NCBI RefSeq assembly: GCF_001482305.1
Contig: NZ_LOHP01000084.1
Coordinates: 62,001 to 126,000, forward strand
Direction: 5' to 3'
DNA: 64,000 nucleotides
From: Leucobacter sp. G161
Lineage (GTDB): Bacteria; Actinomycetota; Actinomycetes; Actinomycetales; Microbacteriaceae
Made by a program: the position numbers and the translations under genes
The notes under the pieces: generated by a model
Databases searched by the model: none
Told to the model about the DNA's origin: nothing
The model's input: only the letters and a program-made list of their open reading frames with translations
Part shown: piece after piece, positions 20,293 to 27,658 of the stretch
Numbering within the stretch: the stretch's first letter is position 1
Layout: each line of letters opens with the position of its first letter

Positions 20293-20298
20293 TAGGCT
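20293..20298 (+). promoter_or_regulatory. -10 box of leaderless promoter for the TetR fusion gene
   Basis: TAGGCT ends 6 nt before ATG 20305. Confidence 0.45.
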
Positions 20299-20304
20299 GG
20301 CAGC

Positions 20305-21708
20305 ATGACATCGGTAGCGCGCGGCCGCCCCCTCGCGTCGTCACGGGAAACCCTCGCAGACGCGGCGAGTGAGCTCTTCCTCGAACAGGGATACGACGCG
20401 ACCACGGTTGTCGACATCACCAAACGCGCGGGGGTCAGCCGATCCTCCTTCTTTAACTACTTCGACGGCAAAGCGGCGACGATCTGGTACGCGCTCGACG
20501 AGCACCTTGACAGATTCTGTGGGCCCGAAGCCGATCACGACGCGTTCTCGGTCGCTGCGCTCGCCGCAGCCCTCGGGGATGCTCCGCCGCACACCCTCGC
20601 GCTCGCGATCACGAACGCCGAGGTCATGGGGGTCGCCGAGGAGCTCACCACTGGTCGGGCACTGCGCCAGTCGGCGCTCGGGGCGGCGCTCGCTGCGGAT
20701 CTGTGTCGGCGGGACCGGAGCCGTGCGATGTTCCTCTGCGAGATCGCCGGGGCGGCACAGGCGGCTGCGGTGTTCGCCGCGATCTGGCGCTGGGCCGCAC
20801 TCGGGGCGGGGACCCACAGGGCCGACGCGGAGATCACCGCCGCGCTGGCTGCGGTCCCCGAGGCACCCCGTGCGGGCGGCAGCGCGTTGCGCGTTGCTGT
20901 GATTGGTGCCGGCGCCATCGGCAGCCGTGTCATTGAGCAGCTCGCGACCGGCAGGGTTGCCGGGACGGTTCTCGCGGGAGTGGTCACGAGACGCCCTGAC
21001 GCACTCAGCGAAACGGTCGGGGCCCTCGCAACGGGGATCACCGACTTCGGTGACGATCTGGCCGGAGCGATCGCCGCGAGTGATCTCGTTGTCGAGTGCG
21101 CGGGGATCGGCGCGGCACGTGAGTTCGGGACCCAGGTCATCGCAGCCGGGCGAGACCTGCTGCTCGTATCGATTGGTGCGCTTGCGGACGAGGCGACGCG
21201 TGCGGCGCTCGTTGAGGGGCCCGGCGTGCTGCGGCTCGCGAGCGGCGCGATCGGCGGGCTCGACATCCTCGCCTCGGCGGCGCGACCGGGAGGCATTCCC
21301 GGCGGTATCGCACGCGCGAGCATCACCTCCACGAAGGAAGCGACATCGCTCGTGCAACCGTGGATGGGGGAACAGGAGGCATCCCGGCTCCGCTCCACGA
21401 CCGAGGCATTTACGCTGTTCGAGGGATCTGTCGCTGAAGCTGTCGAGCTCTACCCGGGGTCGTTGAACGTCGCCTGCGCGCTCGCGCACGCGACCGCGCT
21501 GTGGGATGAGGTGCGGGTGCAGCTGGTGGCGGATCCCGGTGCGGATCGCACGATCCACGAGATCAGTGCGAGTGGCTCGGCAGGCGACTATCGGTTTGTG
21601 ATGACGAACGCCGTATCCGAGGCAAACCCGACCTCGAGCGCGGTCGTCGCAGAATCAGTGCTGCGCGGGATCGGTGAAATCGCGCGACCGAACCGTTCGT
21701 TCGCGTAG
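20305..21708 (+). CDS. TetR regulator fused to an L-aspartate dehydrogenase-like enzyme
   Basis: A 467-residue two-part protein. Residues about 8-60 are a TetR helix-turn-helix domain (ASELFLEQGYDATTVVDITK, then RAGVSRSSFFNYFDGKAATI), followed by a helical ligand domain to about 185. From about 195 a Rossmann domain begins (LRVAVIGAGAIGSRVIEQLA), and the C-terminal part matches aspartate dehydrogenase: SGAIGGLDILASAARPG, SLNVACALAHATALW, IHEISASG and ANPTSSAVVAESVLRGI. Aspartate dehydrogenase oxidises L-aspartate to iminoaspartate with NAD(P), which can feed NAD synthesis. Reading is continuous with no stop or restart signal at the junction. A leaderless promoter precedes it. I know of no standard protein with this architecture. 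Confidence 0.85.
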   Translation: MTSVARGRPLASSRETLADAASELFLEQGYDATTVVDITKRAGVSRSSFFNYFDGKAATIWYALDEHLDRFCGPEADHDAFSVAALAAALGDAPPHTLALAITNAEVMGVAEELTTGRALRQSALGAALAADLCRRDRSRAMFLCEIAGAAQAAAVFAAIWRWAALGAGTHRADAEITAALAAVPEAPRAGGSALRVAVIGAGAIGSRVIEQLATGRVAGTVLAGVVTRRPDALSETVGALATGITDFGDDLAGAIAASDLVVECAGIGAAREFGTQVIAAGRDLLLVSIGALADEATRAALVEGPGVLRLASGAIGGLDILASAARPGGIPGGIARASITSTKEATSLVQPWMGEQEASRLRSTTEAFTLFEGSVAEAVELYPGSLNVACALAHATALWDEVRVQLVADPGADRTIHEISASGSAGDYRFVMTNAVSEANPTSSAVVAESVLRGIGEIARPNRSFA

Positions 21709-22525: not shown

Positions 22526-24577
22526 CTAGATGGTGGCTGCCAGACGGGTCCCCTGGTCGATGGCGCGCTTCGCGTCAAGCTCACCGGCGACGTCTGCGCC
22601 ACCGATGAGGTGCGTCGTCACGCCGAGACCGATCAATTCATCGGCGAGGTCGCGGCGGGACTCCTGCCCAGCACACACCACGATCGAGTCCACCTGGAGC
22701 ACCTGGGCCTGGCCGTCGACTGAGATGTGCAGGCCCGCGTCATCGATGCGATCGTATTCGACGCCGCCGATCATCTGTACGCCTCGGCGGGCGAGCTCGG
22801 TGCGGTGGATCCAGCCCGTCGTCTTGCCGAGACCCTTGCCCAGCTTGCCGTCCTTGCGCTGCAGCATGAAGAGTTCGCGAGGCGGGGCGAGCTGGGCCGG
22901 TGTGGTGAGTCCACCAGCGTGCTCGTACGCTGGGTCGACGCCCCAGTGCGCGAGAAACTCGCCAGTGGTGGCCGGATCTCCGTTGCGCCCCGGGGAATCC
23001 TCAGGCTCGGTGAGAAATTCTGCCGTGTCGAACCCGATGCCTCCCGCGCCGATGACGGCGACCCTCTTCCCGACGGTTGCGCCGTCACGGAGCACATCGA
23101 GGTAGCCAACGACCGAGGGATGATCGATGCCTGGGATAGCGGGTGTTCGCGGGGTGACACCCGTGGCGATGATGACCTCGTCAAAGCCCTCGCTCGCGAT
23201 CGTGGCTGCAGTCGCCTCGTCGCCGAGACGCAGCTGCACCCCGGTCTCCGCGAGCCTGACGCCGAAGTAGCGCAGGGTCTCGCGGAACTCGCTCTTGCCA
23301 GGAACTCGCATGGCAACGTTGAGTTGGCCGCCAATATGGTCGGCAGTGTCAAAGAGTGTGACGTCGTGGCCGCGTTCGCCTGCGGTGACGGAGAATGCGA
23401 GCCCTGCGGGGCCAGCTCCGACCACTGCGAGCCGTTTGGGAGTGTGCGTAGCAGTGATGATGAGTTCGGTTTCGTGCCCCGCGCGGGGGTTCACCAGGCA
23501 GGAAGTGAGCTTTCCCGAGAACGTGTGGTCGAGGCACGCCTGATTGCAGGCGATGCACGTGTTGATGCGTTCGGGAGTGCCCGACGCGGACTTCGAGATG
23601 AACTCTGCGTCGGCGAGGAAGGGCCGCGCGAGCGAGACCATGTCGGCATCGCCCGCTTCGAGAATGTGCTCGGCGGCCTCGGGCGTATTGATGCGGTTGG
23701 TCGCGATGAGCGGCAGCGAGACCTTGTCGCGGAGCTCGCGCGTCACCCAAGCAAAGGCCCCCCGCGGCACCGACGCGGCGATGGTGGGAATGCGTGCCTC
23801 GTGCCAGCCGATCCCCGTATTGATGACGGTGGCGCCTGCGGCCTCGACACGCTGGGCGAGTTCCACGACCTCCTCGAGCGTCGATCCGCCTGGCACGAGA
23901 TCGAGCATGGAGAGCCGGTAGATGATGATGAACTCGGCCCCGACAGCCTCGCGCACGCGGCGGACAATCTCGACAGGCAGCCGCAGCCGACCGTCGAGAT
24001 CTCCGCCCCAACGGTCAGCCCGTTGGTTGGTCTCGAGAGCGATGAACTCGTTGATGAGGTAGCCCTCCGATCCCATGATCTCGACGCCGTCGTAGCCGAC
24101 CGACTGGGCGAGTTGGGCCGCGCGCACGAAGTCTGTGATGGTGCGTTCGATGTCTGCGTCGCTGAGCTCGCGCGGGGTGAGCGGTGAGATGGGTGCGCGT
24201 ACGGGGCTTGGCGCGACGAGATCGGGTTGCGCACCGTAGCGGCCCGCGTGAAGTAACTGGAGCGCAATTCTGCCGCCCTCGCCGTGCACTGCATCAGTCA
24301 CCAGTCGGTGCGGTGCGGCATCCTCACTGCTCGCCATCGTCGCGCCGCCGACAGAGAGCCGGCCCTCCTCATTCGGCGAGATGCCGCCGGTCACGATGAG
24401 CGCCACACCGCCGGCGGCGCGCTCACGGTAGAAGGCGGCGAGGCGGTCGAAGCCCCCGGGGAGCTCTTCGAGCCCGAGATGCATAGACCCCATGATCGCC
24501 CGGTTAGGCAGTGTCACACCCGTGTGCGGGAGGGTGATCGGCGTGAAGAGATGGGGGTACGAAGTCGTCGTTGACAT
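22526..24577 (-). CDS. fadH: NADPH-dependent 2,4-dienoyl-CoA reductase (FadH-type)
   Basis: Probably reduces 2,4-dienoyl-CoA in beta-oxidation of unsaturated fatty acids. About 683 residues. Residues about 8-340 form an old-yellow-enzyme-type FMN barrel (LFTPITLPHTGVTLPNRAIM, LQLLHAGRYG, GSEGYLINEF). Four cysteines bind an Fe-S cluster (CIACNQACLDH, TSCLVNPRAG). Then come FAD (LAVVGAGPAGLAFSV) and NAD(P) (VAVIGAGGIGFDTAEFL) domains. ATG 24577 has AGAGAGG upstream. Trimethylamine dehydrogenase-like proteins share this layout, so the exact substrate is inferred. Confidence 0.85.
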   Translation of the reverse strand: MSTTTSYPHLFTPITLPHTGVTLPNRAIMGSMHLGLEELPGGFDRLAAFYRERAAGGVALIVTGGISPNEEGRLSVGGATMASSEDAAPHRLVTDAVHGEGGRIALQLLHAGRYGAQPDLVAPSPVRAPISPLTPRELSDADIERTITDFVRAAQLAQSVGYDGVEIMGSEGYLINEFIALETNQRADRWGGDLDGRLRLPVEIVRRVREAVGAEFIIIYRLSMLDLVPGGSTLEEVVELAQRVEAAGATVINTGIGWHEARIPTIAASVPRGAFAWVTRELRDKVSLPLIATNRINTPEAAEHILEAGDADMVSLARPFLADAEFISKSASGTPERINTCIACNQACLDHTFSGKLTSCLVNPRAGHETELIITATHTPKRLAVVGAGPAGLAFSVTAGERGHDVTLFDTADHIGGQLNVAMRVPGKSEFRETLRYFGVRLAETGVQLRLGDEATAATIASEGFDEVIIATGVTPRTPAIPGIDHPSVVGYLDVLRDGATVGKRVAVIGAGGIGFDTAEFLTEPEDSPGRNGDPATTGEFLAHWGVDPAYEHAGGLTTPAQLAPPRELFMLQRKDGKLGKGLGKTTGWIHRTELARRGVQMIGGVEYDRIDDAGLHISVDGQAQVLQVDSIVVCAGQESRRDLADELIGLGVTTHLIGGADVAGELDAKRAIDQGTRLAATI

Positions 24578-24665
24578 GAAAGCCTCTCTGCAGAATGTCA
24601 CCCGAATCTAGCGGGGCCGCGCACCGAAGTCGAACACGTAGGCCCGTTCCCACAACCCTGGAGGC

Positions 24666-25877: not shown

Positions 25878-26345
25878 TTAGCGCTGAGCGTCGACCTGTG
25901 TCAGGTCGGCCTCGAGGGCGACCCACGCGAGCATGGCGCACTTCACCCGCATGACGAACTTCGAGACGCCCTGCAGCGCGATTGCGTCGCCGAGGAGTTC
26001 CTCGTCGGGCTCGCCTGCGGTTTTGCCGTGGATCATCTCGCGGAACGCGGCGATCCGCTCCCGGGCTGCCGCCCCATCGAGCGTCTCGTCTCGGACGATC
26101 TGCGCCAGGATGGACGCCGACGCCATCGAGATTGAGCAGCCCTGGCCTTCCCACGCGAGCGAGGTGATCTCGCCGGAGGTGGGGTCAACCGCGATGGACA
26201 CGTCGATCTCGTCGCCACAGCTCGGGTTGAACTCGTGATGCGAGGCGGTAAGTGAACCCTCCGCCGGTGTCAGCTCACCCTTGCCGATGGGGCGCTTCGA
26301 ATGGTCGAGAATAACCTCTTGATACAGTCCGTCGAGCGCGCTCAC
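25878..26345 (-). CDS. sufU: SufU-type iron-sulfur cluster assembly protein
   Basis: 155 residues. In SUF systems of Gram-positive bacteria SufU accepts sulfur from SufS through a zinc site. The three cysteines are in NPSCGDEIDV, GQGCSISMASAS and VKCAMLAW, in the family order, with the aspartate in CGDE. The start overlaps the end of sufS by 4 nt (ATGA), so the pair is one transcription and translation unit. The rest of a suf operon is not in this window. Confidence 0.9.
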   Translation of the reverse strand: MSALDGLYQEVILDHSKRPIGKGELTPAEGSLTASHHEFNPSCGDEIDVSIAVDPTSGEITSLAWEGQGCSISMASASILAQIVRDETLDGAAARERIAAFREMIHGKTAGEPDEELLGDAIALQGVSKFVMRVKCAMLAWVALEADLTQVDAQR

Positions 26346-27658
26346 GCGGACACCTCCGTTCCAAAGTACTGTTGTGCGCCGCGAAGCGCGGCAATAAAGC
26401 GATCGACCTCGTCCTCGGTGGAGGTGACGTGCACGCTCGCCCGGGTCGAGGAGGCCATACCGAGGGCGCGGTGCAGCGGCTGCGCGCAGTGATGCCCGAC
26501 CCGCACGAGTACACCCTGCTCATCGAGGAACTGGCCAAGGTCATGGGCGTGCAAGCCCTCGACCGATACTGCCGTCAGCGCGACCCGCTGGGACGTGTCC
26601 GCCGGGCCGAGCAGCCGGACACCGCGCAGCTCGGCGATGCCCGCAACGAGTCGCTCGACGAGCTCGTACTCGCGCGCGGCGACGCGATCCATGCCGATAT
26701 CGGTGAGGAACTGAGCTGCGGCGCCCAGGCCAACCACCTGCGAAACCGGCTGCGTGCCCGCCTCGAAACGGAGCGGCGGCGGCATGAACTCGGCACCCTC
26801 CATCGTGACCTTGGTGATTGCTGATCCACCGGTACGGGCAGCTGGTAACGCATTGAGCATGTCCGGGGTGCCGTAGAGCACGCCGATGCCGTTCGGGCCG
26901 AGCATCTTATGGCCGGAGAACGCAGCGAAGTCGACGCCGAGCTCCGCGAAGTTCACGGGGATGTGCGGCACCGACTGGCATGCGTCGAGCACGGTGACTG
27001 CGCCGACGCCGCGTGCAAGCTCGACGAGCTCAGCGACCGGCGCGACAAAGCCTGTTACGTTCGAGACGTGCGCGAACGCGAAGAAGCGGGTCTTCGCGTT
27101 GAGCGCGGCGCGGGCATCATCGAGCGTCCACGTGCCGTCCTCGCGCACGGGAATGTACTTCAGTGTCGCGCCCGTTTTCGTCGCGAGGCGCTGCCACGGA
27201 ATGAGGTTGGCGTGGTGCTCAGCCTCGGTGATGAGGATCTCATCGCCAGCGCCGAGGGCGAACCGCTCGGATCCGGCAACGCCGTTGCCTGAGTTGGCCT
27301 CGCCGATACCGAGTGTGACGAGGTTCAGGGCGTCGGTCGCGTTCTCAGCCCACACGATCTGCTCCGGGGCCGCAGCGCCCACGAACTCTGCGATGGCGGC
27401 GCGGGCGCCCTCGAAGGCGCCGGTCGCGGCGCCGACAGCCCCGCTCGTGCCGCGGTGCACGGCCGCGTTGGAACGCTCAAGGAAGGATCGTTCGGCGTCG
27501 AGCACCACGAGCGGACGTTGCGAGGTCGCAGCCGAATCGAGATAGGCCGGGACCAGCGCGGTCGCGGCTCCAGCCGCAGCCTGCTCGTCGATCGCAGCGA
27601 AGTAGGGAAATGCGGCGCGAAGGCCTGCAACTTCAACCGGGGACAGAGACGCATGCAT
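26342..27658 (-). CDS. sufS: Cysteine desulfurase SufS
   Basis: A group II cysteine desulfurase that removes sulfur from L-cysteine for Fe-S cluster assembly. 438 residues. Motifs: AYLDSAATSQRPL, VWAENATDALNLV, AEHHANLIPWQ (histidine stacking on PLP), VLDACQSVPHIPVN, the PLP lysine in FSGHKMLGPNGIG and the catalytic cysteine in RVGHHCAQPLHRALG. Compared with typical SufS it has about 20 extra residues at the N-terminus and a small insertion after about residue 120 (GEANSGNGVAGSE). Start at ATG 27658. Confidence 0.92.
   Translation of the reverse strand: MHASLSPVEVAGLRAAFPYFAAIDEQAAAGAATALVPAYLDSAATSQRPLVVLDAERSFLERSNAAVHRGTSGAVGAATGAFEGARAAIAEFVGAAAPEQIVWAENATDALNLVTLGIGEANSGNGVAGSERFALGAGDEILITEAEHHANLIPWQRLATKTGATLKYIPVREDGTWTLDDARAALNAKTRFFAFAHVSNVTGFVAPVAELVELARGVGAVTVLDACQSVPHIPVNFAELGVDFAAFSGHKMLGPNGIGVLYGTPDMLNALPAARTGGSAITKVTMEGAEFMPPPLRFEAGTQPVSQVVGLGAAAQFLTDIGMDRVAAREYELVERLVAGIAELRGVRLLGPADTSQRVALTAVSVEGLHAHDLGQFLDEQGVLVRVGHHCAQPLHRALGMASSTRASVHVTSTEDEVDRFIAALRGAQQYFGTEVSA

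Follow-up and report, generated by a model that had tools for sequence, protein, structure and literature searches.

Several bacterial proteins carry an enzyme or an enzyme fold together with a DNA-binding regulator in one chain, such as PutA, MocR/GabR, BirA and NadR, and to our knowledge none of these has a TetR domain or an aspartate dehydrogenase (AspDH). In BirA and NadR the regulated pathway is that of a cofactor, to whose metabolism the enzyme part itself belongs. BzdR uses another enzyme family and has no TetR body. As for the genes of lipoate synthesis, cAMP-CRP belongs to a regulator class other than TetR. In Shewanella, lipBA is under the transcriptional control of cAMP-CRP (PMC4398509). 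Here we describe a TetR-AspDH fusion that is akin in its working to the known enzyme-regulator proteins and lies outside all such families compared. Among the papers listed by searches of the open-licence PubMed Central literature, none was found to describe this architecture, in keeping with the original prediction, which knew of no described family of this kind.

The gene lies in a window (the whole stretch of 64,000 nucleotides that was analysed) from Leucobacter sp. G161, and its features are compiled in Table 1. The open reading frames of the window include one uninterrupted forward frame of 467 codons, from an ATG to a TAG. The frame has no stop, and its TetR_N, NAD_binding_3 and Asp_DH_C domains all score above the Pfam cut-offs, which bears out the proposal of a single chain made of a TetR regulator and an AspDH-like enzyme. 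PF00440 reaches 52.8 bits against a cut-off of 24, and NAD_binding_3 (PF03447) covers residues 201–304 with an E value of 1.5e-14; this domain is followed by Asp_DH_C, the order found in aspartate dehydrogenase.

Table 1. Features of the fusion gene, with positions in the window.
Feature	Position	Strand	Basis
TetR-AspDH fusion gene, 467 codons plus stop (ATG to TAG)	20305..21708	+	sequence; Pfam; intact in 7 of 54 genus genomes
TAGGCT, probable -10 element (leaderless promoter), 6 nt 5' of the ATG	20293..20298	+	sequence
TetR_N helix-turn-helix, residues 19–58	20359..20478	+	Pfam PF00440, E 3.3e-14
TetR ligand/dimer domain, residues 61–184	20485..20856	+	all-helical in predicted structure
Linker, residues about 185–194 (~10 residues), lower model confidence	20857..20886	+	fusion comparison; predicted structure
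AspDH Rossmann part	20887..21294	+	Pfam PF03447; Foldseek
GxGxxG, residues 201–206	20905..20922	+	sequence
Asp_DH_C, residues 366–452	21400..21660	+	Pfam PF01958, E 9.9e-24
CAC, His418	21556..21558	+	counterpart of TM1643 His193 (1h2h chain numbering) by alignment

We searched 54 Leucobacter genomes, including the window's own (G000), and found the full-length fused frame without a stop in seven of them. This is the list of fusion-bearing genomes that had been called for; identity to the window protein is 91% in G038, 72% in G019, 70% in G018, 69% in G003, 67% in G004 and 61% in G013. In G036 and G037 TetR and AspDH are adjoining genes with a gap of 60 bp, and other Leucobacter have TetR alone, AspDH alone, or both at separate places (e.g. 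G015, G027). In an AspDH tree of 30 rows the seven fused domains group together (99/97), and their sister group is the split pair (82/90). By this comparison the fusion arose once within Leucobacter, probably from an adjoining TetR and AspDH gene pair. No full-length fusion was found outside the genus in samples of 398 family genomes and 396 order genomes. In the former, 33 genomes match at E<=1e-30, and full-length matches are confined to G000 and the split pair of G036; in the latter, six match at E<=1e-45 and only G000 does so at full length. Some AspDH matches fall within long open frames (L039, L047, G573, G608), and the long frames in L039 and L047 have no TetR motif. Stand-alone AspDH relatives adjoin glycerol genes in G027 and G015. 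The M20 peptidase and MFS genes that accompany TetR in G015 and G027 have a stand-alone AspDH beside them in G016 and G032 (L064, L065).

A TANNNT box, exactly 6 nt and a start codon follow one another in the window gene and in 13 of the 15 TetR genes checked, which suggests that the TetR start serves leaderless expression of the fusion; the two misses (G036, G037) were both taken at an upstream GTG. The original prediction also saw no restart site at the junction, and the comparison agrees: codon 195 is TTG in the window and CTG, CTC, CTG, CTG, CTG and CTT in the other six fusions. No restart codon is thus kept there, and separate translation of the enzyme half is unlikely. For an AlphaFold2 model computed from the window protein and relatives (34 sequences in all), the mean pLDDT over the whole protein is 90.4 and the pTM 0.66. 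The model places ten helices in the TetR half between residues 14 and 182, one just four residues long, where TetR repressors have about nine; then come a dip in confidence around residues 181–190 (block mean 66) and thereafter a full AspDH. Because of this dip and the pTM, the mutual placement of the two halves in the model is uncertain. TetR structures were matched by a sequence search with the window protein; the 50 Foldseek matches listed are all of dehydrogenase type, with no TetR fold among them.

The best Foldseek matches in the PDB are the AspDH structures 2dc1, 1j5p and 1h2h, with target-normalised TM-scores of 0.80–0.86. The original prediction asked after the conservation of the enzyme's key residues: the GxGxxG motif, the GAxGGLD segment and His418 are unchanged across all seven fusions. 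His418, which we take to be the active-site histidine, is moreover invariant among 15 aligned AspDH sequences. Arg229-Arg230 would suit NADP, and GxGxxG is termed the canonical NAD motif in one source (PMC5554190). Judged from these residues, the AspDH half is probably active as an enzyme. Eight NCBIfam AspDH models (subfamily and equivalog) match the protein, all below their curated cut-offs and the best with 137.9 against 177 bits; the domain is therefore a diverged relative, with aspartate as merely the likeliest substrate.

The TetR half is also constrained. Among the 21 fusion pairs, dN is 0.000–0.098 in the helix-turn-helix (HTH), the lowest of the protein, 0.042–0.525 in the ligand domain and 0.066–0.378 in AspDH, and dN/dS is at most 0.51 in all regions (Nei-Gojobori; dS is high, and just the ranking of regions is used). 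Comparison thus indicates constraint on all parts, and strong purifying selection on the HTH, including in genomes without the neighbouring transporter described below. The ligand domain can be aligned over its full length with stand-alone orthologues.

In six Leucobacter genomes examined closely, a stand-alone TetR gene and the operon of an Opp/Nik-type ABC transporter (SBP_bac_5, permease, permease-ATPase) are oriented divergently, and a 21-bp imperfect palindrome with a consensus of about TTGTTGGAYNNNRTCCAACAA lies between them. A first position weight matrix (PWM) was built from nine Leucobacter sites at TetR/transporter. With this nine-site PWM, the palindrome was found near TetR in 67 of 73 loci, mostly Microbacterium (L140–L212, being 73 of the best 80 out of 147 relatives). 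In 66 of these 73 loci TetR and lipB are divergent genes separated by the palindrome; for the palindrome part of this count the PWM was trained partly on 30 of these same sites, while the nine-site PWM is independent. The gene directly behind lipB is lipA in 65 of the 66 (names verified on L142), and the palindrome ends a median of 49 bp ahead of the TetR match at the TetR-lipB loci. Seven loci, of which two are Leucobacter, depart from this layout: L140, L141, L144, L190, L194, L206 and L212.

In Leucobacter, lipB stands apart from the TetR gene in the genomes examined, and the lipB model TIGR00214 is matched in 32 of the 54. The binding protein of the operator-linked transporter is kept in 19 of the 22 lipB-less genomes and in 21 of the 32 with lipB; the lipB-less genomes that also lack it are G001, G004 and the incomplete G038. 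We scanned 31 of the 32 lipB genomes (L229, L231–L260; G011 left out), and a palindrome lies shortly 5' of lipB in 30 of them. The sole locus without it belongs to G043, where lipB starts at base 3 of the contig. Of these 31 loci, 30 were scored with a PWM made without any Leucobacter lipB site, and 29 have a palindrome of 17.8–28.3 bits upstream of lipB; the G021 site scores 23.1 bits. A score of 15 bits is reached by about 0.8% of 3000 randomly drawn stretches of 430 bp, true sites counted in. In G000 the palindrome TTCTTGGACTGAGTCCATCTA ends 10 nt 5' of the likely ATG of lipB, with lipA next. It is the one site in the whole G000 genome with at most three mismatches to the consensus, and a reversed control pattern occurs at two places. 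A single three-mismatch site is not rare by itself, and its position at lipB carries the weight. The predicted operator is absent from the 64-kb window (best score 4.2 bits), which gives no sign of autoregulation there. A different TetR could read the lipB palindrome; the next-best TetR match in G000 has 50% identity over 48 residues.

Some candidates were set aside. The TTGGAC-N3-GTCCAA sites were rejected as biotin (BioQ) sites, the genes alongside being lipB-lipA and metNIQ/osmC. A near-match kept in G003, G004 and G018 (L127–L129) scores under 10 bits, and other G000 near-matches (L122, L130–L132) at most 9.6 bits. All ten of the 54 Leucobacter genomes without a TetR match at E<=1e-19 lack lipB; this co-occurrence was not counted as support, as at least eight of the ten have a diverged TetR beside the transporter.

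Among the seven fusion genomes, six have a strong site. It is found at lipB in G000, G003, G018 and G019, between osmC and metN in G003, G004 and G018 (L119:6827, L126:6773, L214:1501), and at the ABC transporter in G013 and G019, where it is also 5' of the fusion gene; G013 has a further site of 18.4 bits (L218). G038 (74% complete) gave no convincing site (best 15.4 bits), and lipB was not found in G038, G004 or G013. No close orthologue of the transporter was found in G000, G038, G018, G003 and G004, and the fused regulator therefore seems to have outlived the transporter in this clade.

OsmC/Ohr peroxidases draw electrons from lipoyl groups. Lipoyl synthase is a radical-SAM enzyme (PMC13232139), and a methionine importer would fit the regulon. 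On these grounds lipB-lipA, osmC and metN would make a sensible lipoate-linked set. The operator-linked ABC transporter, whose binding protein is kept in most lipB-less genomes, may bring in lipoate or lipoyl peptides. The original prediction named no DNA target. As the target of the TetR half, lipB-lipA and this small set are better supported than genes for aspartate or NAD, and recognition of the 21-bp palindrome by this half is a well-supported prediction. Among the papers listed by searches of the open-licence PubMed Central literature, no description of a TetR-type lipB repressor with a candidate operator was found.

The genes around the TetR loci were also inspected. The convergent neighbour of the fusion gene carries an E2 2-oxoacid dehydrogenase catalytic domain in four of the seven fusion genomes; it is 2-oxoglutarate dehydrogenase E2 by family in G013, G004 and G038 (cut by the contig end in the last) and by 78% similarity in G019. 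This SucB-like catalytic domain has about 250–280 amino acids and no lipoyl domain (L061:7797-8537, L057:10293-10997, L060:10365-11108). A FadH/OYE-type flavoenzyme is encoded at 22526–24601 (-) of the window; it scores under the thresholds of the BaiCD and mycofactocin OYE models, and in several Leucobacter such a flavoenzyme also lies close to the stand-alone TetR. At 25878–27658 (-), 4–6 kb away from the fusion, are SufU and a gene of the SufS family, the second of which falls just short of its cut-off; LipA too is an Fe-S enzyme, though the link may be chance. In six of 20 genomes (G001, G005, G008, G015, G021, G050; L071:1262-2596) nadA and the stand-alone TetR gene are no more than about 8 kb apart.

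A second kind of fusion was found in Microbacterium. TetR was detected in 75 of 76 loci (L137–L212), and in 20 of these, all Microbacterium, it runs on into a VOC/glyoxalase-fold domain (example L143:5995-6990), assigned by Pfam in four loci and by length and visible similarity in the remainder. In 19 of the 20 the palindrome separates TetR-VOC from a divergent lipB. By eye, the usual first metal-ligand histidine seems to be absent, and the VOC domain may bind rather than catalyse. In a TetR tree made by a quick method, with SH-aLRT as its only support measure, the AspDH fusions, all seven, are one clade (99) and the VOC rows stand on one side of a branch from them, though unfused rows may sit among the VOC rows. 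As judged from these trees and loci, enzyme-fold domains have joined the lipoate-linked TetR at least twice; two unrelated domains stand at the same end, which argues that extra domains, sensory or enzymatic, are of use at the C-terminus of this regulator.

We regard it as fairly probable that in the fusion a catalytically plausible AspDH forms the C-terminal half of a TetR-type repressor whose regulon is small and lipoate-linked. We infer repression: the fused switch protein most likely turns the genes that make lipoic acid off. It probably acts as a dimer via both halves, and a homodimer would bind the palindrome over the likely leaderless promoter of lipB; given this position, binding is expected to stop transcription of lipB-lipA. 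In our preferred, if speculative, reading the repressor would be modulated by aspartate/oxaloacetate or NAD(P)H occupying the AspDH half, so that the lipoate supply for 2-oxoacid dehydrogenases would follow the TCA/redox state. Control of DNA binding by the state of the enzyme (NAD(P), aspartate), as the original prediction proposed, is plausible and speculative. More generally, the TetR C-terminus may repeatedly receive enzyme-fold sensor domains, an active AspDH in Leucobacter and a glyoxalase-fold domain in Microbacterium, whose turnover or cofactor occupancy gates the repression of lipoate synthesis; we put this forward tentatively, and if true, lipoyl-cofactor supply would be matched to TCA/redox state in a way undescribed in the open-licence literature searched. 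We know of no link of aspartate to lipoate and of no recognised step for AspDH in lipoate synthesis, and this lack of an obvious metabolic logic counts against the reading, its coupling part included, as do the other locations of stand-alone AspDH relatives, such as those at glycerol genes.

The two halves might instead work independently, the TetR repressing lipB-lipA by way of its own ligand pocket and the AspDH being an ordinary metabolic enzyme joined by chance, with only their ratio fixed. We think this rather unlikely, although purifying selection acts on two complete halves, a short and variable linker joins them, and the LALAI and W-WA--GA region motifs of the ligand domain are common to fused and stand-alone orthologues. 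The ligand domains of fused and stand-alone proteins are about equally conserved at HTH identities of 0.97–1 (0.80 vs 0.83) and 0.88–0.93 (0.59 vs 0.63), but the fused ones are less so at 0.93–0.97 (0.54, n=5, vs 0.70, n=24) and 0.82–0.88 (0.51, n=6, vs 0.61, n=111), in bins whose pairs overlap and where some stand-alone rows are duplicated. An unrelated second domain grafted at the same end in Microbacterium also speaks against independence. A possible coupling of the halves gains support from the recurrent grafting and from the greater divergence of the ligand domain in two of the four identity bins. A role of the AspDH half as a sensor that has lost catalysis is improbable: the under-cut-off scores with all eight NCBIfam models would agree with it, and BzdR is a precedent, its shikimate-kinase-like domain being reported to have lost activity (PMC3602430), yet GxGxxG, GAxGGLD and His418 have stayed invariant in seven fusions and a genome-wide profile search finds PF01958 in no other G000 protein.

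AspDH stands in place of NadB in Thermotoga, and the enzyme might likewise replace NadB in NAD synthesis here, the TetR half being incidental. A NadB match above the curated cut-off was found in none of the ten genomes tested, G000 included. However, G000 has NadA (C64:94117-95163) directly followed by a full-length NadB-like frame (C64:95169-96827) of 379 bits against a cut-off of 452.75, and the split-pair genomes G036 and G037 are without NadA, so AspDH does not track NadA; we disfavour this role as very improbable. There is finally the artefact named at the outset, a sequencing error joining two genes that are adjacent in close relatives, or an unexpressed read-through. Such unfused relatives do exist (G036, G037), but as a sister state, and they are no sign of an error in the window: the frame is common to seven species-level genomes, including single-contig assemblies (G003, G004, G013), and dN/dS does not exceed 0.51 for any region or pair. 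Conservation has already refuted this reading, and the fusion is a real, conserved protein architecture.

Leucobacter and Microbacterium thus likely have a dedicated repressor with a clear palindrome, and in one clade it has been joined to a metabolic enzyme, a union that may tie the production of a key cofactor to central metabolism. The regulator occurs naturally in stand-alone, split, fused and differently fused form, a series that allows a direct test of how enzymes become part of regulators. The closest relative is the stand-alone Microbacteriaceae TetR beside lipB-lipA, which is alike in HTH, ligand domain and palindrome and differs in having no AspDH, with a VOC-fold C-terminus in the 20 Microbacterium loci. 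The L-aspartate dehydrogenases (TM1643 / A. fulgidus, PF03447+PF01958) share the fold, the glycine motif and the conserved histidine, whereas the fusion adds an N-terminal TetR and falls under the NCBIfam AspDH cut-offs. PutA and MocR, invoked in the original prediction, are analogies only. Unlike in BirA and NadR, the AspDH is not obviously part of the metabolism of the controlled cofactor. By controlling lipB-lipA transcription (PMC4398509), cAMP-CRP of Shewanella resembles the predicted role of the fusion; it has no AspDH. BzdR likewise combines a DNA-binding HTH with an enzyme-derived, shikimate-kinase-like domain, which is reported to have lost activity (PMC3602430), whereas the fusion keeps its key residues intact.
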